Source: an uncultured Oscillospiraceae bacterium (lineage in GTDB: Bacteria > Bacillota > Clostridia > Oscillospirales > Oscillospiraceae). From it: a DNA stretch of 64,000 nt. The stretch is taken from contig CANQUE010000004.1 of NCBI GenBank assembly GCA_947626905.1, forward strand, positions 17,351 to 81,350. The letters run 5' to 3'. The notes below the pieces were generated by a model. That model was not told the origin of the DNA, did not search any database, and saw only the letters and a program-made list of their open reading frames with translations. This document shows, piece by piece, positions 1 to 15,899 of this stretch. The position numbers and the translations under genes are program-made. Numbering within the stretch: the first letter of the stretch is position 1; every line of letters starts with the position of its first letter.

Positions 1-3000
1 GCTGACGCTGAGCAAGCACACGGTGTTCCCCTGCCTCTACTCCTTGCTGTCGGATGCGGGAAAGCTCTATATCAGCCAGGTGGACAGCTTCTCCAGAGGC
101 GTGTCCCAGCAGCTGCCGTGGCAGGCCGGCCGTATCGAGGGCCTGTACGCCCCCGGGGCGTATTTTTCCGTGGACAAGATGGTCCGCTGTTACGAGGGCG
201 TCGTCAGGGACGGCACTGTGTCGGCATATCTTCGCGGGAACGACTTTCTGCAGCAGGAGGTGTTTTACCGCTGCGTGACCCATCGGACGGTGGACGAGCG
301 CCGGCCGGGGCCTCTTTCCAGCACCGTCATCGATATCTGCGGCAAGTATCAGCTGGGGAAGATATACATCAGCAGCGGCACGGTCAAGAGAGTGCAGTGC
401 GAGCGCATATACACCGCCAGGACCGACCTGACCCCTTACGAGGACGGGGCGAAGGTGCGGGCGGAGCTGTGCAGCGAGGGGCAGAGCCTGGTCGTCAGCT
501 CCGTCTCCACAGAGGAGCTGCTGCTCCCCTCCTATAAGCTGGCGCTGCAGCAGGAAAAGGCCGCCTTTGACGCCCAGACGAAGGACGCGGAAGCCAGGGG
601 CGACTACGAGACGCAGCTGCGGCTGACCGAGCAGATGCTGGAGCGGGAATTCATCCAGCCGGAGGTTGGCTTCAACGTCATTTTCAAGATATGCGTGGCC
701 CAAAACGGTCTGCCCCGGATGTACGGCGCGCTGGAGCGCTATGGCTACCAGCTCCGGCGGTCGGCCTATAACGGCTACAGGATGCAGCTGGATGCGCTGA
801 GCGGCCAGTACGAGCAGGCCGCAAAATACGCGAGGGACTATCTCTCCGCGGACCAGTCCAGCAAGTTCCTCAATTCCGCGGCCAGCCAGATCGTCCGGCG
901 CGCCGTGGACCCCGAAACGCTGAGAGAACACATCCTGAACGAGGCTACCTTCGACCAGAAAAAGTGCGCCGGCAAGATCGGCTATTACGACAACCCCACA
1001 AAGCACGGGTATATCCTCTGGGAGCGCAGCAAGCTGAACTTCTCCCACAAGGATATCCTGGGCAGCAGCGATATAGAGTTCGACCTGCAGGCCTTCGACT
1101 ATTTCGTCTCCTTTGACGTGGACCGCAGCAAGCCCGTCCTCCGGGCCAGGAACGTCATCATCGACGAGATCGTCTCCCGGGGGGATGAGAATGAACAGCC
1201 CCCTCAGCCGGAGATGCCCGAATACCCCGAGGGACCGGACGAGCTGGGCTTCAACGAGGACATCCGGGTCACCCGGGTGCTGGAGTTCGCCAGAGAGAAC
1301 TTCTCCTATGACAGCATCCTGGGCTACCTCCCCAGCGAGGACCGCAGACTGTTCTCCGACGGCGGGTTCTGCGGCACGGCCGACCAGGCGCGAAAGCTGA
1401 TCGGGAGCCTGCGGGCGTTCTTTGGCTCGCGGCGGAGGCCCGACCGCTTCAGCGGCATCCCGGCCCATCTGCGCCCCGGTCTGCTGCTGGCGGCCGCCAA
1501 GCTCCACCACCAGTTCGCCGCGGACTACGCCGGGGACGATGAGTTCTGGAGCGACGGCGTGGGCAACGCCATCCTGTTCGAATACGCCGACCGGTATATC
1601 AACGCCGACGGCGCCACCGAGCCCGCGGAGGCAGAATATTACTGCGAGAGCGTCTTTTTGAACAACTTCCCCAACACCGCGAAAAACCGCATGAAGGCCC
1701 GCTGCCTGGTGGACTTCTTCCAGGGGACGGAGGGCATCAACACATCCCGCTGCGCGGAGGACTCCGCCATCTCCGGTTTGCTGAAACGGACCTGTGTGGA
1801 CCCCGACGGCCTTTCAAGGATGCTTCTGAACCTGCCTGAACAGATATTCAGCGACCTGCTGCAGCTCATGCCCCAGTCGCTGCGAAAAATCCTTGTGGGG
1901 ACGATCAGCGTCACAGAGGATACCGGCATGCTGCGAAAGCGGGAACAGGAACACGCAGAGGCCGTCATCCGCCAGTACTACATCCGTTACCACGGCTATC
2001 TGGAAAGGGCCCGGCAGTTCGTGGACCAGTTCTCCGTCATCGAGGACGTGCCCCACTACCTGGCCCAGCTGGAGAGCGCCAACGACGCGGTGGGGCGGTA
2101 TTTCTTCGGCATAGACCAGGAGCGGGTCCTGAGCACGGTCAATGTGCTGAACACCATAGCCGCCGGACTCAGCGAGGAGGATGTGGACAGAAAGATCAGC
2201 CAGATGCAAAGCGTGTTCGGCAATATCCGTCACCTGCTCACCCAGACAGAGAGCCACCCCTCCAAGCTCTCCTTCGAGTTCATCCGGCCGTTCATGCTGA
2301 AGATACAGCAGCTGCTGTCGGCCTATCTGGACAACCAGTTCGAGAAGCTCCAGCCGGAACTGACGGTGGAGCACTACGAGCTGGCGGGAGATGGGATGCG
2401 GGAGCGGCTGCAGATCAGCAACGAGAGCCAGCGGCTCTCCGCCATGAACATCAAGCTGAAAGAGGCCAGGCCCTACGGCAAGGACCCGGGCTTCATCGTG
2501 GACGACAACGGCAGCCGGACCACCCAGGGCCTGGGCCAGACCATCGTCGGCGGCAAAGCCGCGGAGATCAGCATCCCGATCCAGATCTATCCGGACGCGC
2601 CGAAGGTCCTGGAGCTGTCTCTGACCCTGGCGTACGAGCGCTCGTGCCATTACAATGTGGAGAAGGGCTTTGCCGAGAACCAGGTGGAAGAGGTGACGGT
2701 CAGCGTCCAGATACCCCGGCAGACGGAGGCGGCGGAGTATATCCGGGAGAACAAATACGCCCATTTCGCCGGCGGTATGGCCATGCAGCCGGGAAAGAAC
2801 AAAGCGGAGGAGATGTTCTTCGGCAGAGAAAACGACATCGACACGGTCTACCGGATGCTGACGGACGACGCCGGTCACTTCAAGACGGGCAGCATGGTGG
2901 CGATCTATGGGCAGAAGCGCTGCGGCAAGACCTCCGTCATGAACTTCCTGGCAAAGAGGATACAGCAGGAGCACCCGGACGCGCTGGTCCTGAGCATCAA

Positions 3001-4060
3001 CGCCCAGTCCATCAGCCCCGGCCAGGACAAGGACGCATATTACAGAATGCTGCTCCAGGCCATCACCACGTCCTTCAAGATAAGCTCCTTCGCCAAGCCG
3101 GAGCTGCGGGCCGAGCTGACCGAAAACGGGCTGAAGGCTCCCTCTCCCGCCGAGCTCCTCTCCGACGGGGGCGAGGTATATTTCAACGACTTCTTCCAGG
3201 TGTTCCACGCGGTGTTCCAGGACCGCTACCCCATCATCCTGATGGTGGACGAATTCACCCAGATATATATCCACATGAAAAAGCGCCGGGTCAGCGAGGA
3301 TTTCCTGAACCGCTGGCGGGCCATGATCCAGGAGAACGCATTCGTCAACATCATCGTCGGCCAGGATTTCATGGACAAGTTCACCACCGACGAGGAGGTG
3401 GCCAACCAAAACTACGGCGGCGCTGTCAACGGCCTGGGGACCCTGGGCAAGAAACGGCTGTCCTACCTGGCGAAGGAGGACGCCAAGCATATGATCGAAG
3501 ACCCTGTCCGGTACTCCGACGGGTCGAGCCGGTTCCGGGGCCAGCTGGGCGACGCGGCCATCGACAGGATATACGATCTCACCGGCGGCAGCGCCTTTTA
3601 TCTCATGAAATTCTGCAACGCCCTGGTGGACTATATGATGAAAAACCGGATCACCCTGATCCCCCGGAGCCTGGTGGATACCGTCGCCACCGGGTATGCC
3701 TTCGACACCCCGAACAATCCCATCGAAAAGAGGGACTTTGATCCCATCTACAACGAGTACAGCTACGACGAAAAGAAGGACCAGGGCGACGAGATCATCG
3801 CCCAGGTGGGCAGCGAGGTCGATCACACCTATAGGCTTCTCAAACTCATCGCCGACTTGTCCGACCGGGAGGGCCGCTGCGAGCTTTCGAGGCTCCAGTG
3901 GGACGACGAGGAGGAGAAGCTGCGCATCCTGCACTCGCTTTTCGTGCGGGGCGTGCTGATGGACCCGCGGGGACGGGACATCACGGCTGAGCGCATAGAC
4001 AGGCTGGAGGTCCGCATCAAGGTACAGCTGTTTTCCATATGGCTGAGAGAGAGGGGATAA
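1..4060 (+). CDS. Large multidomain P-loop NTPase (STAND/AAA-like) with internal cold-shock/OB-like segment; 5' end truncated by window
   Basis: ORF open to window position 2 in frame (LTLSKHTVFPCLYS...), so the GTG at 23 need not be the start. Walker A AIYGQKRCGKTSVM (~2903-2944), Walker B IILMVDEFTQ (~3232-3261). CSD-like GKIGYYDNPTKHGYI...FDYFVSFDV...ARNVIID (~970-1165). Confidence 0.75.
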   Translation, partial: LTLSKHTVFPCLYSLLSDAGKLYISQVDSFSRGVSQQLPWQAGRIEGLYAPGAYFSVDKMVRCYEGVVRDGTVSAYLRGNDFLQQEVFYRCVTHRTVDERRPGPLSSTVIDICGKYQLGKIYISSGTVKRVQCERIYTARTDLTPYEDGAKVRAELCSEGQSLVVSSVSTEELLLPSYKLALQQEKAAFDAQTKDAEARGDYETQLRLTEQMLEREFIQPEVGFNVIFKICVAQNGLPRMYGALERYGYQLRRSAYNGYRMQLDALSGQYEQAAKYARDYLSADQSSKFLNSAASQIVRRAVDPETLREHILNEATFDQKKCAGKIGYYDNPTKHGYILWERSKLNFSHKDILGSSDIEFDLQAFDYFVSFDVDRSKPVLRARNVIIDEIVSRGDENEQPPQPEMPEYPEGPDELGFNEDIRVTRVLEFARENFSYDSILGYLPSEDRRLFSDGGFCGTADQARKLIGSLRAFFGSRRRPDRFSGIPAHLRPGLLLAAAKLHHQFAADYAGDDEFWSDGVGNAILFEYADRYINADGATEPAEAEYYCESVFLNNFPNTAKNRMKARCLVDFFQGTEGINTSRCAEDSAISGLLKRTCVDPDGLSRMLLNLPEQIFSDLLQLMPQSLRKILVGTISVTEDTGMLRKREQEHAEAVIRQYYIRYHGYLERARQFVDQFSVIEDVPHYLAQLESANDAVGRYFFGIDQERVLSTVNVLNTIAAGLSEEDVDRKISQMQSVFGNIRHLLTQTESHPSKLSFEFIRPFMLKIQQLLSAYLDNQFEKLQPELTVEHYELAGDGMRERLQISNESQRLSAMNIKLKEARPYGKDPGFIVDDNGSRTTQGLGQTIVGGKAAEISIPIQIYPDAPKVLELSLTLAYERSCHYNVEKGFAENQVEEVTVSVQIPRQTEAAEYIRENKYAHFAGGMAMQPGKNKAEEMFFGRENDIDTVYRMLTDDAGHFKTGSMVAIYGQKRCGKTSVMNFLAKRIQQEHPDALVLSINAQSISPGQDKDAYYRMLLQAITTSFKISSFAKPELRAELTENGLKAPSPAELLSDGGEVYFNDFFQVFHAVFQDRYPIILMVDEFTQIYIHMKKRRVSEDFLNRWRAMIQENAFVNIIVGQDFMDKFTTDEEVANQNYGGAVNGLGTLGKKRLSYLAKEDAKHMIEDPVRYSDGSSRFRGQLGDAAIDRIYDLTGGSAFYLMKFCNALVDYMMKNRITLIPRSLVDTVATGYAFDTPNNPIEKRDFDPIYNEYSYDEKKDQGDEIIAQVGSEVDHTYRLLKLIADLSDREGRCELSRLQWDDEEEKLRILHSLFVRGVLMDPRGRDITAERIDRLEVRIKVQLFSIWLRERG

Positions 4061-4064
4061 GGCG

Positions 4065-5663
4065 ATGAAAAGATTTTTTGACCCCAATAACCCTGTTACC
4101 GGCAGCTCGTTCCTGGGGCGGACCCGGGAACTGGCGTTCCTCCGGGACACGCTTTTTTCCAACGCGGTGCAGGGGAACAGCGTCAATCTGTCCATCACCG
4201 GGATGAACCGGATCGGCAAGACGTCTTTGATGAAAGAGGCGTGCCGCCGGTTCCGGGAGGAGGACCATCCTGACGTATATCTGATCGAGAGCACTCTGGA
4301 CGGCCAGAGCGGCTTCTGGCGGTACTGGGTCGGCGAGGTCCTGCGGCCCCTCTTAAAACAGATCGGCCCTGGAGAGATAGACGCAGACTGTGCCGACTTG
4401 TTCGAGATGTGCCGGGCGTATTTTTTCGATAAGGAGAAGCTGCGCGCACTGTTCCAGGACGACGATCTGGTCGCCGATATGGAGGCCAAGGAGCAGATGG
4501 ATATGCTCTTTTTCGTCCTGCAGCGCATGCAAAAGCATGTCATCCTCGTGATCGACGAATTTGACAAGGCGAGCAGCGTGTTTGGCCTGCGGGAGGAGAA
4601 TTTCGGCTGGTTCCGGGGTCTTTTGCAGCAGAATCAAAACCTTTCGGTGGTCACCCTTTCCAGAAGAAGCATCTATTTTATCGAGCAGAACAGCTTCGGC
4701 GGCTCCACGCTCCACGGCATCTTTTCAAAGCATGGCCTCTTTGGCTTCACCAACAGCGAGATACAGGAATTTTTCGACTATGTGGAGATCGAGCGCGGGC
4801 CCTTGACGGACAAGCAGAAAAAGAGCATCTGGTACAGCTGCGGCAGATCGCCGTATTACCTGGCCATCATCGGCGATATCCTGCTGAACAACGAAAAGGT
4901 GAATATCGCCGAGGCCTGCAACTGCCTGTGCGACAGCTTTGACGCCGTCCTCCGGCTGCTAAAGGAGGAGGGGCTTCTGACCGCCATGCTGCAGATGTTC
5001 GTCGGCCCCCGGTTCAATCTGCGGCAGCCGGAGGTGGAGAGGCTGATGGCGATGGGCTATTGCATGAGCAAGGCCTCGCTGGATACCGAGTACGGCATCA
5101 AGGAATACATAGACCTCTATGTGCCGGAACGAACCGGCGCCTACCTTACGGTCTGCCGCCGGTTCGAGGACTATATGGCCGAGACCTTCAAGGGCGAGAT
5201 CGACGATATCTGGCCAAAGCTCACCGCCACGCAGCGCCATCTGAAAAAACTCATAGAGGCAAAATACAAAACGCTGTACGGCGGCAACAGCGAGAACAAG
5301 TTAAGGCAGCTGTTGATGACTGCGACCCGGGAGATCTTTTTGAACGAGCATGAGCAGCTCTATATGCAGGCGGGCGCCCGCCAAAAGAAAGAGGTGGGCA
5401 ACAGCATCCTCAATGTCGTCAACTTTACCGGTCTTGGCATTGCGATGCTCTGTGAGTGGAACAGCTTCAAGGGATGCTTTTCGTGGTCCAAGGACCAGTT
5501 CAAGCAGAATATCCAGATCCTGCAGAACGCACGCAATCCTATCGCCCACGGCAACGGGGAGCTTCTGACGCCGGAGCAGGTGGAAGAGGTCGAGGACGTC
5601 TGCGCCCAGTTCATCACGAAGATCGACAAGGTCCTGCCCCCGGAGCCCGTTCCCGCCCACTGA
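4065..5663 (+). CDS. P-loop NTPase with C-terminal HEPN-like domain
   Basis: Walker A SITGMNRIGKTSLMKEA, Walker B VILVIDEFDKAS, N-terminal FLGRTREL typical of STAND/AAA ATPases; C-terminal helical region with RNPIAHGN (R-x4-H). Starts 4 nt after the preceding stop. Confidence 0.8.
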   Translation: MKRFFDPNNPVTGSSFLGRTRELAFLRDTLFSNAVQGNSVNLSITGMNRIGKTSLMKEACRRFREEDHPDVYLIESTLDGQSGFWRYWVGEVLRPLLKQIGPGEIDADCADLFEMCRAYFFDKEKLRALFQDDDLVADMEAKEQMDMLFFVLQRMQKHVILVIDEFDKASSVFGLREENFGWFRGLLQQNQNLSVVTLSRRSIYFIEQNSFGGSTLHGIFSKHGLFGFTNSEIQEFFDYVEIERGPLTDKQKKSIWYSCGRSPYYLAIIGDILLNNEKVNIAEACNCLCDSFDAVLRLLKEEGLLTAMLQMFVGPRFNLRQPEVERLMAMGYCMSKASLDTEYGIKEYIDLYVPERTGAYLTVCRRFEDYMAETFKGEIDDIWPKLTATQRHLKKLIEAKYKTLYGGNSENKLRQLLMTATREIFLNEHEQLYMQAGARQKKEVGNSILNVVNFTGLGIAMLCEWNSFKGCFSWSKDQFKQNIQILQNARNPIAHGNGELLTPEQVEEVEDVCAQFITKIDKVLPPEPVPAH

Positions 5664-7078: not shown

Positions 7079-7094
7079 GAAAGGGGTGCTCATT

Positions 7095-7337
7095 ATGGTC
7101 GGCGCGACGGCGACTGCTACAGAGATGCAGAACAATTTTGGGCGCTATCTGAACCTGGTCATGCACGGGGCCGAGGTCATTGTGACGAAAAACGGCAGAG
7201 AAGTCGGCAGATTCATTCCCAAAGGCGCGGCGGTGTCGTATCTCACAGATTCTCTGACCGGTGTCCTCAAGGGCGATCATGATCTGGAAGATGTCCGGGC
7301 GGCGCGAGTGAAGAGAAAATATGAAGCTGCTGATTGA
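7095..7337 (+). CDS. Type II antitoxin, Phd/YefM family
   Basis: MVGATATATEMQNNFGRYLNLVMHGAEVIVTKNGREVGRFIPKG is a Phd/YefM fold signature. Confidence 0.9.
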   Translation: MVGATATATEMQNNFGRYLNLVMHGAEVIVTKNGREVGRFIPKGAAVSYLTDSLTGVLKGDHDLEDVRAARVKRKYEAAD

Positions 7338-7728
7338 CGCCAACATCCTGCTGGATGTGCTGCAAAAACGGGAGCCTCATTACAGGGACTCTGCCTTGAT
7401 CTGGAAGTTGTGTGAAGCGGAACAGGCTGAAGGCTATGTTTCCGCCCTGTCCTTCGCGGATCTCGTCTATGTGATGCGCAAAGAACTAAACGCCGAGATG
7501 GTCCTGGACGTTCAGAAAAAGATGGCTCTGATCTTCCGCTTTGCGGACCTTACCGCGGCGGACATCACCCGTGCGGTGGAGATGCAATGGGATGATTTCG
7601 AGGATGCCGTGCAGGCGGCGGCCGCCGAACGCATCCACGCCGATCATATCATCACGCGTAATGTGCGGGATTTCAGGCAGAGCAGGATCGTGGCCTTTAC
7701 TCCGGCGGAGTATCTGGCGAGGATCTGA
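7321..7728 (+). CDS. Type II toxin, PIN domain ribonuclease (VapC-like)
   Basis: MKLLIDANILLDVL and ADHIITRNVRDF PIN motifs; overlaps the antitoxin by 17 nt. Confidence 0.9.
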   Translation: MKLLIDANILLDVLQKREPHYRDSALIWKLCEAEQAEGYVSALSFADLVYVMRKELNAEMVLDVQKKMALIFRFADLTAADITRAVEMQWDDFEDAVQAAAAERIHADHIITRNVRDFRQSRIVAFTPAEYLARI

Positions 7729-11216: not shown

Positions 11217-12399
11217 GATAAACTCCTTCGTATCCGATCTTCACAAATTCTATCCCCGCCAGGGCCTCGGCCACCAGACCGTCCACGTCCAGGGCGGCCT
11301 CCGCCTCCCGGACTTTTTTGATCTTGGGGTGGGTGCAGGGGTGGCGGGGGGTGAACACGGTGCAGCAGTCCTCATAGGGCAGGATGGAAGTCTGGAAGGT
11401 GCCGATGCGCTCGGCGATGGCGATGACCTCCTTCTTGTCCATGCCCACCAGGGGCCGCAGCACCGGCCGGTCGGCGCAGTCCTCGGTGGCGGCCATGGCC
11501 TCCATGGTCTGGCTGGCCACCTGGCCCAGGCTCTCTCCGGTAATGATGGCGCCGCACTTGTTGTCCGCCGCCACGGCGCAGGCGATGCGCATCATCATCC
11601 GGCGCATGACAAGGGTGAAGTAATCCTCCGGGCACTTGTCCCGGATCTCCTCCTGGATGTGGGTGAAGGGCACGATCTGCACGTTCATCCGCCCGCACCA
11701 GGGCACCAGCAGCTTCGCCAGGTCCAGCACCTTCTGCTTGGCAAGTTCGGAAGTGTAGGGGAAGGAGAAAAAGTGCACCGGGATCAGGCGCATGCCCCGC
11801 TTGGCCATCATCCAGGTGGACACGGGGCTGTCGATGCCGCCGGACAGCATCGTCACCGCCGCGCCCGCCGTGCCCACAGGCAGGCCGCCGGCGGCCTCGA
11901 TGGGGGCGCCGTGGACATAGGCCGCCCGGTCCCGCACCTCCAGGTGCACGGTGAACTCGGGGTCGTGCATGTCCGCGGTCAGGCCGGGGAAGGCGTCGTT
12001 CAGCTCCCCGCCCACGTACTGGCTCAGCTGCACGCTGGTCATGGGGAAGGACTTGTCCCCCCGGCGGGATTCCACCTTGAAGGTCTTTGCCGCCGACAGC
12101 TGGTCGAACAGGTATTCTTTGGCCTTTGCCAGAATGGCCTCCGGGGTCTTTTCGCAGGCGGCGGCCCGGGTCATGGTCATGATGCCAAAGACCTTTTCCA
12201 GGGCCTCGAAGGCCCCGTCCACGTCGCAGTCCCCGCTCTGGGGCTCCACGTAGATGATGGACTGGTGGGCGATCACCTCAAAGCGGCCGAATCGCCGGAT
12301 GCGGCGGCGGATGTTGCTGAGGAGCTTTTGCTCGAAGGAGCGCTTGTTCAGGCCCTTCAGGACCACCTCGCCCTCCTTCAGAAGGATCATATCGGTCAT
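11200..12399 (-). CDS. thiI: tRNA 4-thiouridine synthase ThiI
   Basis: LLKEGEVVLKGLNKRSFE..., PP-loop MLSGGIDSPVSTWMMAKRG, THUMP region. Confidence 0.95.
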   Translation of the reverse strand: MTDMILLKEGEVVLKGLNKRSFEQKLLSNIRRRIRRFGRFEVIAHQSIIYVEPQSGDCDVDGAFEALEKVFGIMTMTRAAACEKTPEAILAKAKEYLFDQLSAAKTFKVESRRGDKSFPMTSVQLSQYVGGELNDAFPGLTADMHDPEFTVHLEVRDRAAYVHGAPIEAAGGLPVGTAGAAVTMLSGGIDSPVSTWMMAKRGMRLIPVHFFSFPYTSELAKQKVLDLAKLLVPWCGRMNVQIVPFTHIQEEIRDKCPEDYFTLVMRRMMMRIACAVAADNKCGAIITGESLGQVASQTMEAMAATEDCADRPVLRPLVGMDKKEVIAIAERIGTFQTSILPYEDCCTVFTPRHPCTHPKIKKVREAEAALDVDGLVAEALAGIEFVKIGYEGVYHGQEL

Positions 12400-12460
12400 A
12401 AATGGATCTCTCCGATCGGGATGTTATCATGGTCTTTGCCGCTTGGCGGCAAAGGGAGGC

Positions 12461-13975
12461 CTATTTCGCGAGCGCCGACGACGTTCTGTACTGTATGGCC
12501 TCCGCCAGATGCATGGGGCCGATGGATTCGGCGCCGTCCAGATCCGCGATGGTCCGGGCCACCCGCAGGATGCGGTCATAGCTCCGGGCGGTGAGGCCCA
12601 GGGCCTCATAGGCTCCCTTCATCAGGGCCGAGCCCTCCGGGTCCAGCGCACAGAACCGCTCCAGCGCCGCCGGGCCCATCCGGGCGTTCTCTCCCACCTC
12701 TGTGCCGGCGAACCGGCCCCGCTGGATGGCGCGGGCGGCATCCACCCGGGCCTTGATGGCGGCGGAGCTCTCTCCGCTGGGCTTGGCCTCCAGCTGGTCG
12801 TACTCCAGGGCCGGGACCTCCACCATAATGTCGATCCGGTCCAGCAGCGGCCCCGAGATCTTGCCCTGGTACTCCGCCACAGAGCGGGGCGAACACCGGC
12901 AGCGGCCCGAGGGGTGGCCATACCAGCCGCAGCGGCAGGGGTTCATGGCGCACACCAGCATGAACCGGCTGGGGTAGGTGACAGACCCGCCGGCCCGGGA
13001 AACGGTGACCTCCCCCTCCTCCAAGGGCTGGCGCAGCAAGTCGATCACGTCCCGGTGGAACTCCGGCAGCTCGTCCAGAAACAGCACCCCGTTGTGGGCC
13101 AGGCTCATCTCCCCGGGCCGAAGGTCCGCCCCGCCGGACAGGGCCTGGCGGGAGGCGGTCTGGTTGGGGGCCCGGAAGGGCCGCCGGAGGACCACCGGCG
13201 CGGCGGGGCTGGTCAGTCCCGCCACCGACCAGATGGCCGTGGTGCGCAGGGCCTCGTCCCGGGTCAGGTCCGGCAGGATGCCGGGCAGGCGCTTGGCCAG
13301 CATGGATTTGCCCGCCCCCGGCGGGCCCACCATCAGCACGTTGTGGCCGCCGGCGGCGGCCACCTCCAGCGCCCGCTTCACGTTCTCCTGGCCCTTTACC
13401 TCGGAAAAGTCCGGCACGGGAACGCTGTCCGGGTCCAGGACCCCCGGGGCGGCGGGCAGGATGGCCTGTTCCCCCGCCAGATGGTCCGCCAGCTGGCGGA
13501 CGTTCTCCACGGGATAGACCTCCACGCCCTGGGCAAACGCCGCCTCGGCGGCGTTGTCCCGGGGCACGAACAGCCGCTTCGCCCCGGCGGCCTCCGCCGC
13601 CAGCGCCATGGGCAGCGCCCCGGAAACAGGCCGGAGCTGTCCCGTCAGGGACAGCTCGCCGAAAAACATATCGTCCTGCTCGGGGGCCCGGCACTGGCCG
13701 GTGGCCGTCAGGATGCCCAGCAGCACCGGCAGATCATAGACCGTGCCGGCCTTTTTCGTGTCCGCCGGGGCCAAGTTGACCGTGATGCGGCTGACCGGAA
13801 AATCCCAGCCGTTGTGCTTGATGGCCGCCCGGACCCGGTCCGCGGCCTCCTTCACGGCGGCGTCGGGCAGGCCCACCATGTCCAGGCGGGGCAGGCCGGA
13901 GGTGATGGATGTCTCCAGCTCCACCTCGTAGCCGCCTATTCCTTTGATGCCAAGGGAACGGATGCGTGCGTACAT
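12461..13975 (-). CDS. comM: YifB/ComM family Mg-chelatase-like AAA ATPase
   Basis: VELETSITSGLPRLDMVGLPDAAVKEA; VGPPGAGKSMLAKRLPGILP; CNPCRCGWYG. Confidence 0.95.
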   Translation of the reverse strand: MYARIRSLGIKGIGGYEVELETSITSGLPRLDMVGLPDAAVKEAADRVRAAIKHNGWDFPVSRITVNLAPADTKKAGTVYDLPVLLGILTATGQCRAPEQDDMFFGELSLTGQLRPVSGALPMALAAEAAGAKRLFVPRDNAAEAAFAQGVEVYPVENVRQLADHLAGEQAILPAAPGVLDPDSVPVPDFSEVKGQENVKRALEVAAAGGHNVLMVGPPGAGKSMLAKRLPGILPDLTRDEALRTTAIWSVAGLTSPAAPVVLRRPFRAPNQTASRQALSGGADLRPGEMSLAHNGVLFLDELPEFHRDVIDLLRQPLEEGEVTVSRAGGSVTYPSRFMLVCAMNPCRCGWYGHPSGRCRCSPRSVAEYQGKISGPLLDRIDIMVEVPALEYDQLEAKPSGESSAAIKARVDAARAIQRGRFAGTEVGENARMGPAALERFCALDPEGSALMKGAYEALGLTARSYDRILRVARTIADLDGAESIGPMHLAEAIQYRTSSALAK

Positions 13976-14030
13976 GAGCCGGATACTCCTTTCATTTCAT
14001 ATGCCCGAAGGGCACTATATCGAACGGGGT

Positions 14031-14065
14031 CCCCACGGGAAACCAGCAAAGCGTTTCCCGTGGGG
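14031..14065. repeat. Intergenic hairpin, 13-bp perfect stem
   Basis: CCCCACGGGAAAC-cagcaaagc-GTTTCCCGTGGGG. Confidence 0.85.
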
Positions 14066-14085
14066 AGAGGAGAGACCCCCGGGCT

Positions 14086-14119
14086 GTCCTCCCCTTGCCG
14101 CTTGCGGCAATGGGAGGAC
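14086..14119. repeat. Intergenic hairpin, 16-bp stem with one mismatch and TT loop
   Basis: GTCCTCCCCTTGCCGC-tt-GCGGCAATGGGAGGAC. Confidence 0.85.
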
Positions 14120-14123
14120 CAGC

Positions 14124-15899
14124 TTAGGGTGTTTCGACGACGGCGATATGCAGCTCGTCCAGCTGCTTTTGCTCCACGGCGGAGGGGGCGCCCATCATCA
14201 CGTCCTGGGCGTTCTTGTTCATGGGGAAGGGGATGATCTCCCGGATGGAGGGCTCGCCGGCCAGGAGCATCACCATCCGGTCCACGCCGGGGGCGATGCC
14301 CGCGTGAGGGGGCGCGCCATAGCAGAAGGCGTTGTACATGGCGGGGAACTTGGCCTTCACGTCCGCCTCCCCCAGGCCCACCATCTCGAAGGCCTTGACC
14401 ATGATGTCGGGGTCATGGTTGCGCACCGCGCCGGAGGAAAGCTCCACGCCGTTGCACACCAGATCGTACTGGTAGGCGTAGATGTCCAGCGGGTCCACCT
14501 CGCCCTTTTCCGCCTGCTCCAGGATCTTCAGCCCGCCGTTGGGCATGGAGAAGGGGTTGTGGCAGAACTCCAGCTGGCCGGATTCCTCCCCGATCTCGAA
14601 CATAGGGAAGTCCACGATCCAGCAGAATTCGTACCGGGCCTCGTCCATATGGCCGGGCACCGCCGCGCCCAGCATCTTCAGGGCCACCCCCGCGGTCTTG
14701 CGGGCCGCGTCGGGGGTCCCGGCGGCGATCAGCCCCAGGCTGCCGGGGACCATGCCCAGGTCCTTCAGCGCCTGCTCATGGCCGGCCAGGAACTTGGCCA
14801 CGCCGCCCACCAGAGCGCCGTTTTCGTCCATCCGCACCCAGTAGGGCTTCGCTCCCGCCTGGACGGCCACGTCGTCGCAGAGCTTGTCGATCTGCTTCCT
14901 CGTCAGCGCCGCGCCGGTGCAGGGCACGATCTTTACGGCTCCGGCCTGGGCGAAGGGCTCAAAGCCCTCGGTCTGGCGGGCCAGGGCGGTCATGTCCTTC
15001 ACCGTCAGGTCGATGCGCAGATCCGGCTTGTCGGTGCCGTAGGTGTCCATGGCGTCGTTGTAGCTGATGCGCCGGAACGGCGGCCGGGAGGCCACGTCAT
15101 AGACGCCGTATTTGGCGAAGATGGGCGGCAGCACGTCCTCGATGACGGCGAACACGTCCTCCTGTCCGGCAAAAGCCATCTCCATATCCAGCTGATAGAA
15201 CTCGCCGGGGGACCGGTCGCCCCGGGCGTCCTCGTCCCGGAAGCAGGGGGCGATCTGGAAGTAGCGGTCAAAGCCGGAGGTCATCAGAAGCTGCTTGAAC
15301 TGCTGGGGGGCCTGGGGCAGGGCGTAGAACTTGCCCGGATGCTTCCGGGCCGGCACCAGGTAATCCCGGGCGCCCTCCGGGCTGGAGGCGGTGAGGATGG
15401 GGGTGGTGATCTCCAGAAAATCGTGGGCGAGCATGGCGCTGCGCAGCGCCGCCACCACGTTGCACCGCAGGATGATGTTCTTCTTCACCGCCGGGTTGCG
15501 CAGGTCCAGATAGCGATACTTCAGCCGGATGGCCTCGTCCGCCTCCCGGCTGCGGTTGATCTCAAAGGGCAGCTCGTTATAATGGCAGCGGCCCAGCACT
15601 TCCACGGTCTCGGGCACCACCTCGATGTCCCCGGTGGGCAGCTTGGGATTTTTGCTGTCCCGCTCCCGGACCGTGCCGGAAACGGAAACGGTGCTCTCCT
15701 TGGTGATGGCCCGGAAGCATTTGACCATGTCCTCCGTCTCGGCCACCACCTGGGTGGTGCCGTAAAAGTCCCGGATCACCGCGAAGGCCAGGGCGGAGCC
15801 CACTTCCCGGACGTTCTCCAGCCAGCCCACGATGGTCACCTTCTGCCCGGCGTTTTCCAGCCGCAGCTCGTTGCAGGTATGGGTGCGCATTTGTGTCAT
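14124..15899 (-). CDS. aspS: Aspartyl-tRNA synthetase (bacterial type)
   Basis: RTHTCNELRLENAGQKVTIVGWLENVREVGSALAFAVIRDFYGTTQVV; GAPPHAGIAPGVDRMVMLLAG. Confidence 0.97.
   Translation of the reverse strand: MTQMRTHTCNELRLENAGQKVTIVGWLENVREVGSALAFAVIRDFYGTTQVVAETEDMVKCFRAITKESTVSVSGTVRERDSKNPKLPTGDIEVVPETVEVLGRCHYNELPFEINRSREADEAIRLKYRYLDLRNPAVKKNIILRCNVVAALRSAMLAHDFLEITTPILTASSPEGARDYLVPARKHPGKFYALPQAPQQFKQLLMTSGFDRYFQIAPCFRDEDARGDRSPGEFYQLDMEMAFAGQEDVFAVIEDVLPPIFAKYGVYDVASRPPFRRISYNDAMDTYGTDKPDLRIDLTVKDMTALARQTEGFEPFAQAGAVKIVPCTGAALTRKQIDKLCDDVAVQAGAKPYWVRMDENGALVGGVAKFLAGHEQALKDLGMVPGSLGLIAAGTPDAARKTAGVALKMLGAAVPGHMDEARYEFCWIVDFPMFEIGEESGQLEFCHNPFSMPNGGLKILEQAEKGEVDPLDIYAYQYDLVCNGVELSSGAVRNHDPDIMVKAFEMVGLGEADVKAKFPAMYNAFCYGAPPHAGIAPGVDRMVMLLAGEPSIREIIPFPMNKNAQDVMMGAPSAVEQKQLDELHIAVVETP

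Follow-up and report, generated by a model that had tools for sequence, protein, structure and literature searches.

Two earlier descriptions come close to the locus reported here. The first, a prediction by Kaur et al. (2021, eLife, PMC8195603), concerns a mobile operon of two genes, both of whose proteins contain STAND nucleoside triphosphatase (NTPase) cores of the nSTAND2 type. As far as the available text of that paper goes, one of the NTPases has eroded motifs and is fused to variable effectors, mostly GT4 or HEPN, while both proteins carry a conserved arginine finger and are predicted to form a toroidal hetero-multimer. Anantharaman et al. (2013, PMC3710099, Table 1) listed Swt1-type HEPN domains fused to STAND-ATPase, TPR and S1, with Npun_F6454, MED222_16016 and Desac_1927 as examples. 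Here we describe two adjacent genes, A and B, at the left end of a 64,000-nucleotide stretch of DNA from an uncultured Oscillospiraceae bacterium (the window, C4:17351-81350 of the source contig). The pair encodes two STAND NTPases, the second joined to a putative HEPN ribonuclease domain, and is very probably a variant of the paired-STAND two-gene immune operon predicted in 2021. A first-pass annotation had called it an undescribed two-gene NTPase/NTPase-HEPN module. The module is borne out by intact Walker motifs in both proteins and by the pairing of the genes at every locus found; the word "undescribed" is not, since operons of paired STAND proteins with GT4 or HEPN effectors already appear in the text of Kaur et al. 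available to us.

Gene A enters the window with its 3′ part (positions 1 to 4060, about 1352 of 1823 codons; open reading frame 2 to 4060, open at its 5′ end). Its stop codon is separated by 4 nucleotides from the start of gene B (4065 to 5663), which lies on the same plus strand and encodes a putative effector protein of 532 residues with a STAND NTPase and a C-terminal HEPN-like domain, as judged from the open reading frame call, Pfam and an AlphaFold2 model. Base 1 of the window falls inside gene A, and extension of the contig to the left, as proposed in the first-pass annotation, recovered a likely start of the gene. The frame runs over L003:7529-13060 (window coordinates are those of L003 minus 9000), with a likely ATG at L003:7589, about 1.4 kb to the left of base 1, giving a protein of about 1823 residues.

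Each gene encodes its own pair of nucleotide-binding motifs on the plus strand: Walker A AIYGQKRCGKTSVM (2900 to 2941) and Walker B IILMVDEF (3233 to 3256) in A, and Walker A SITGMNRIGKTSLM (4191 to 4232) and Walker B VILVIDEF (4539 to 4562) in B. Motifs were aligned for A from 21 loci and for B from 20. The GQxxxGK[ST]S and DEF patterns of A are kept in 21/21 loci, and Walker A and the DEFD of B in 20/20. No aligned homologue lacks any of the four motifs, so they are not chance matches. Sequence comparison further showed that the NTPase of A is a homologue of that of B. As to the arginine finger, B retains an SR(R) motif behind its fourth strand, and the alignment has none at the corresponding place in A.

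Searches for A and for B, run independently over 251 genomes of the window's family, recovered exactly the same 4 genomes, in each of which A precedes B. When this survey was combined with an order-level match, a GTDB genome scan and surveys around two new carriers, 21 distinct loci were obtained from Bacillota, Actinomycetota and Bacteroidota, and A is immediately upstream of B in all 21. A survey around a third carrier yielded no new carrier. Named carriers are Streptomyces coelicoflavus and a Chryseobacterium metagenome-assembled genome. Across the three phyla the homologues share roughly 20-30% identity, and the distances between A NTPases correlate with those between B NTPases (r 0.90 over 10 loci and 0.94 over 20; Mantel r 0.83 after removal of close relatives). 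On the strength of this co-occurrence and correlated divergence, we rejected the reading of A and B as two unrelated open reading frames. Phylum-level matches of the B profile were discarded as short generic P-loop matches.

The pair is sparse in every group surveyed. Counting the seed genome in every tally, it was found in 4/251 genomes of the window's family. Of the genomes from the genus to which the Streptomyces carrier belongs, 5/199 had it; for the families of the Actinomadura and Chryseobacterium carriers the counts were 6/221 and 1/217, respectively. One further carrier turned up at order level among about 396 genomes. The three genomes of the window's own genus that the family survey listed had no match to A or B. 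This distribution speaks against a vertically inherited pair of core genes, and with it against a housekeeping or stress-related RNA-processing factor, a very improbable reading that the RNA-binding and RNase-like domains would suit but that we rejected on the sparse occurrence, the spread over three phyla at low identity and the use of the same tRNA site by a recombinase in a sister species (see below).

The NTPase of B scores above the Pfam cut-offs for ATPase_2 and AAA_16. The AlphaFold2 model (predicted local distance difference test score, pLDDT, 82) has an all-helical C-terminus, and in structure comparison it matches the archaeal STAND ATPase 2qen, the plant NLR ZAR1, Avs3 and RdrA. The helical C-terminal region with the HEPN-like domain (residues ~383-524; 5211 to 5636, plus strand) was delimited from Pfam, the model and PADLOC. 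It contains a putative catalytic motif, R490-N-P-I-A-H495 (5532 to 5549, plus strand), whose R and H are kept in 16/16 HEPN-bearing homologues. Over the 21 loci, the effector position of B is occupied by HEPN in 16 and by a GT4-conflict domain in one, and nothing recognisable was found there in four. The GT4-conflict domain replaces HEPN in the B homologue at L069 7936-10383 on the minus strand (genome G1087, from the genus of the Streptomyces carrier; Pfam E 3.6e-132). Some B relatives have an extra C-terminal extension that, by eye, resembles a small barrel. At L031 (9926-12114), a caspase gene (Peptidase_C14) lies directly downstream of, and convergent to, a B gene without HEPN.

Protein A has a long N-terminal region with an Sm-like barrel, cold-shock domains and helical/TPR repeats, and after it a predicted beta-rich segment, the STAND NTPase and a winged-helix-like tail. 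The NTPase exceeds the curated Pfam cut-off for nSTAND1 (31.5 bits vs 27.1) and is also placed in ATPase_2 and AAA_16; the beta-rich segment before it was predicted by eye, and the tail at the C-terminus (3836 to 4057, plus strand) comes from alignment, with approximate ends. In a profile search against the PDB, the N-terminal ~60 residues resemble an Sm/Hfq-like small barrel. An archaeal Sm protein matches best (E 1e-4); Hfq, RimP and designed SH3-like barrels also match, together with some unrelated chains at weaker scores; PDB sequence searches with single proteins gave nothing useful. With the family's own profile, from whose building some proteins were held out, the barrel was detected in 18/21 A proteins. 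One to five cold-shock domains per protein are present in A of the Bacillota and Bacteroidota members, and the profile of this repeat has cold-shock and Y-box proteins as its top PDB matches (best E 3.4e-4). The window's A has a single clear copy, which the family's profile, built with that copy included, places at residues 285-355; taken alone, the copy has no Pfam CSD match. Neither this clear copy nor the Sm-like barrel is encoded within the window. Several A relatives have TPR matches, and in one relative PADLOC recognises a TPR protein with a fused cold-shock-like domain.

These features place the pair close to the nSTAND2 operon of Kaur et al., which shares with it the mobile two-gene layout, a STAND NTPase in each protein, and GT4 and HEPN as variable effectors, here both found on B. 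Within the limits of the available text, three differences stand out. There the eroded NTPase carries the effector, whereas here A is intact in 21/21 loci and B in 20/20; in Pfam, A falls under nSTAND1 instead of nSTAND2; and an Sm-like/cold-shock N-terminus goes unmentioned in that text. B resembles nSTAND2 (PF20702) in part: it scores 18 bits against a cut-off of 24 and is the sole nSTAND2 match in the window genome, and B is above cut-off (30 bits) in 2/10 carrier genomes, with A unmatched. Among the open-licence texts searched for nSTAND2 we found no follow-up paper, nor did we find experimental work on the paired-STAND operons of the 2021 prediction.

By their description, the fusions of PMC3710099 resemble B in joining a STAND NTPase to a Swt1-like HEPN in one protein, and the small-barrel-like extension of some B relatives may be counted as a further likeness; they are listed as fusions only, with no partner gene described. 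Avs and other NLR-like proteins share the STAND switch with exchangeable effectors, and the B model matches Avs3 and plant NLRs; in Avs, however, sensor, switch and effector reside in a single protein, whereas here they would be split over two STAND NTPase proteins. DUF499/BrxC-like BREX-related systems and CoCoNuTs (PMC12839542, PMC11090510) likewise pair HEPN RNases with large NTPases in predicted defence, and CoCoNuTs, which are predicted to be RNA-directed, also have cold-shock domains. Their NTPases are of the BrxC/ORC-Cdc6 type or McrB, in contrast to the two STAND NTPases here, and the window has no methylase or helicase.

The genomic setting of the pair points to mobility. The pair follows a tRNA-Met gene, whose 3′ terminus is where DNA similarity to four sister species stops. 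In one of the sister species (G1015), the same tRNA-Met gene holds an element of about 2.6 kb with a large serine recombinase (L048 8452-11028), bounded by repeats of the tRNA-Met 3′ end; the tRNA-Met gene is a live integration site in the window's genus. Around the window copy we found no second copy of the tRNA-Met 3′ end and no intact element. A promoter and terminator scan returned a number of sites no better than in shuffled sequence; one 11/12 promoter-like site just before tRNA-Met is probably the tRNA's own promoter. About 1.4 kb downstream of B, the window also contains two overlapping genes (7086 to 7728, plus strand), one for a Phd/YefM-like antitoxin and one for a PIN-domain (VapC-like) toxin.

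At another locus, L011 from a gut clostridial genome, a cluster at 1309-5065 on the minus strand lies directly upstream of A-B and encodes an EcoRI-type restriction enzyme (Pfam EcoRI E 5.8e-129), a methylase, PARG, Uma2 and KptA. WYL-domain genes adjoin the pair in L027 and L028, a PIF1/UvrD-like helicase stands beside it in L026, and a phage integrase and a Schlafen-AlbA gene are near it in L066. About 100 nucleotides downstream of B in L028, a gene at 11911-14808 (plus strand) encodes a 965-residue protein with a weak WYL match only, unusually large for a WYL regulator. No homologues of the window's B were found on the plasmids, phages and viral contigs searched, and its A had one plasmid match only, at 22% identity over the NTPase, to a protein annotated as a methylase. 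On closer inspection this match belongs to a more distant A/B-like pair on the Acinetobacter ursingii plasmid NZ_MH220285.1 (L080 5-10827). There an operon-like run begins with WYL, a hypothetical gene and a restriction R subunit; next comes a protein that joins an N6-methylase to an A-type STAND NTPase, and then a B-like ATPase with DGFD instead of DEFD in its Walker B. The run resembles a restriction system assembled around this kind of NTPase pair.

Computation shows here that the genes are paired, their motifs intact, the effectors swapped and the occurrence patchy, and it gives the domain content and the mobile-element setting. On this basis we favour with moderate confidence a mobile two-gene counter-invader module, probably anti-phage, with A as sensor and switch and B as HEPN effector; defence is the reading that, in our judgement, would suit the pair best. 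We propose a plausible mechanism as follows. At rest, the paired NTPases would keep the HEPN domain inactive. A, whose N-terminus has Sm/Hfq-like and cold-shock (OB-fold) nucleic-acid-binding domains along with helical/TPR repeats, may then sense a cue from an invader; this would most likely be a nucleic acid and might be phage RNA. Upon this cue, A would exchange nucleotide and co-assemble with B, which could bring HEPN domains together so that host or phage RNA is cut and growth stops. Defence, the nature of the cue, assembly into hetero-oligomers, cleavage of RNA and the arrest of growth are what we infer. The sensor and effector roles suggested in the first-pass annotation accordingly stand as far as A is large and sensor-like and its HEPN partner sits in effector position, and the immune role is retained as a proposal. 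We favour this account because of the pairing, the correlated divergence, the intact NTPases, the B fold, the Rx4H motif and the GT4 swap, and also because of the A barrels, the tRNA-Met breakpoint, the EcoRI, WYL and phage-integrase neighbours and the A. ursingii plasmid pair.

Several observations weigh against this account. By profile, the HEPN call for B is weak, with sub-threshold Pfam matches to HEPN_RiboL-PSP (21.0 bits vs a cut-off of 28.4) and HEPN_Swt1 (18.6 bits vs 27.5); it is supported by the Rx4H motif, by Swt1-HEPN matches in 6/10 members, by HEPN-type PADLOC models that match B and by the helical C-terminus. The four B copies lacking a recognisable effector are actinobacterial and stop after the NTPase, and several A-B loci have ordinary metabolic neighbourhoods. 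PADLOC-DB 2.0.0 gave no full-length match to a protein of a named system, in line with the first-pass annotation, which had recognised none; the weak or partial matches are to mad8, RTasHEPN, PDC-M34B and TPR-CSD. PDC-M34 was rejected as an identity, for its HEPN-type model alone matches B and no A protein matches a PDC-M34 model. On the sensing side, the family profile detected no cold-shock domains in actinobacterial A proteins, and given this, nucleic-acid sensing may not be general. Moreover, the AlphaFold2 model of a relative's A N-terminus (L024) is of low confidence (pLDDT 48), and Foldseek with that model lends weak support only: the top matches are cold-shock proteins, none below E 0.07.

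A more specific form of the favoured account, which we offer tentatively, is a split NLR-like machine in which A would sense foreign RNA or single-stranded DNA via its barrels, and a catalytically competent STAND-STAND pair would switch on an exchangeable B effector, either a HEPN RNase or a GT4 glycosyltransferase. In the strongest rival reading the role is again immune, but what A senses is a protein or complex of the invader, by way of its TPR, helical or beta-rich segments, and the barrels serve assembly or autoinhibition instead of nucleic-acid recognition. The TPR matches in A relatives, the resemblance of the B fold to the protein-sensing Avs3 and plant NLRs, and the actinobacterial A proteins without detectable cold-shock domains are all in keeping with it. 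We nonetheless consider it somewhat unlikely in view of the Sm-like barrel in 18/21 A proteins and up to five tandem cold-shock copies in one A; tandem cold-shock domains together with a kept Sm-like barrel suggest that these members, at least, act on nucleic acid directly. Improbable, in our view, is a toxin-antitoxin or plasmid/genomic-island maintenance system, with B as an RNase toxin and A as a large inhibitor. HEPN domains are commonly toxins, the genes are adjacent and probably co-translated, and the site is a recombinase-targeted tRNA, but a first gene encoding an NTPase of 1300-2100 residues is unlike known antitoxins, both NTPases are kept intact, and in one B HEPN gives way to GT4, with other B proteins carrying no effector at all.

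The A-B family provides compact, intact examples of paired-STAND operons in named bacteria. In this family HEPN and GT4 are exchanged on one conserved chassis, and Sm-like and cold-shock domains are placed on the sensor protein. Two questions are thereby made testable: whether bacterial STAND proteins sense nucleic acids directly, and what GT4 effectors do.

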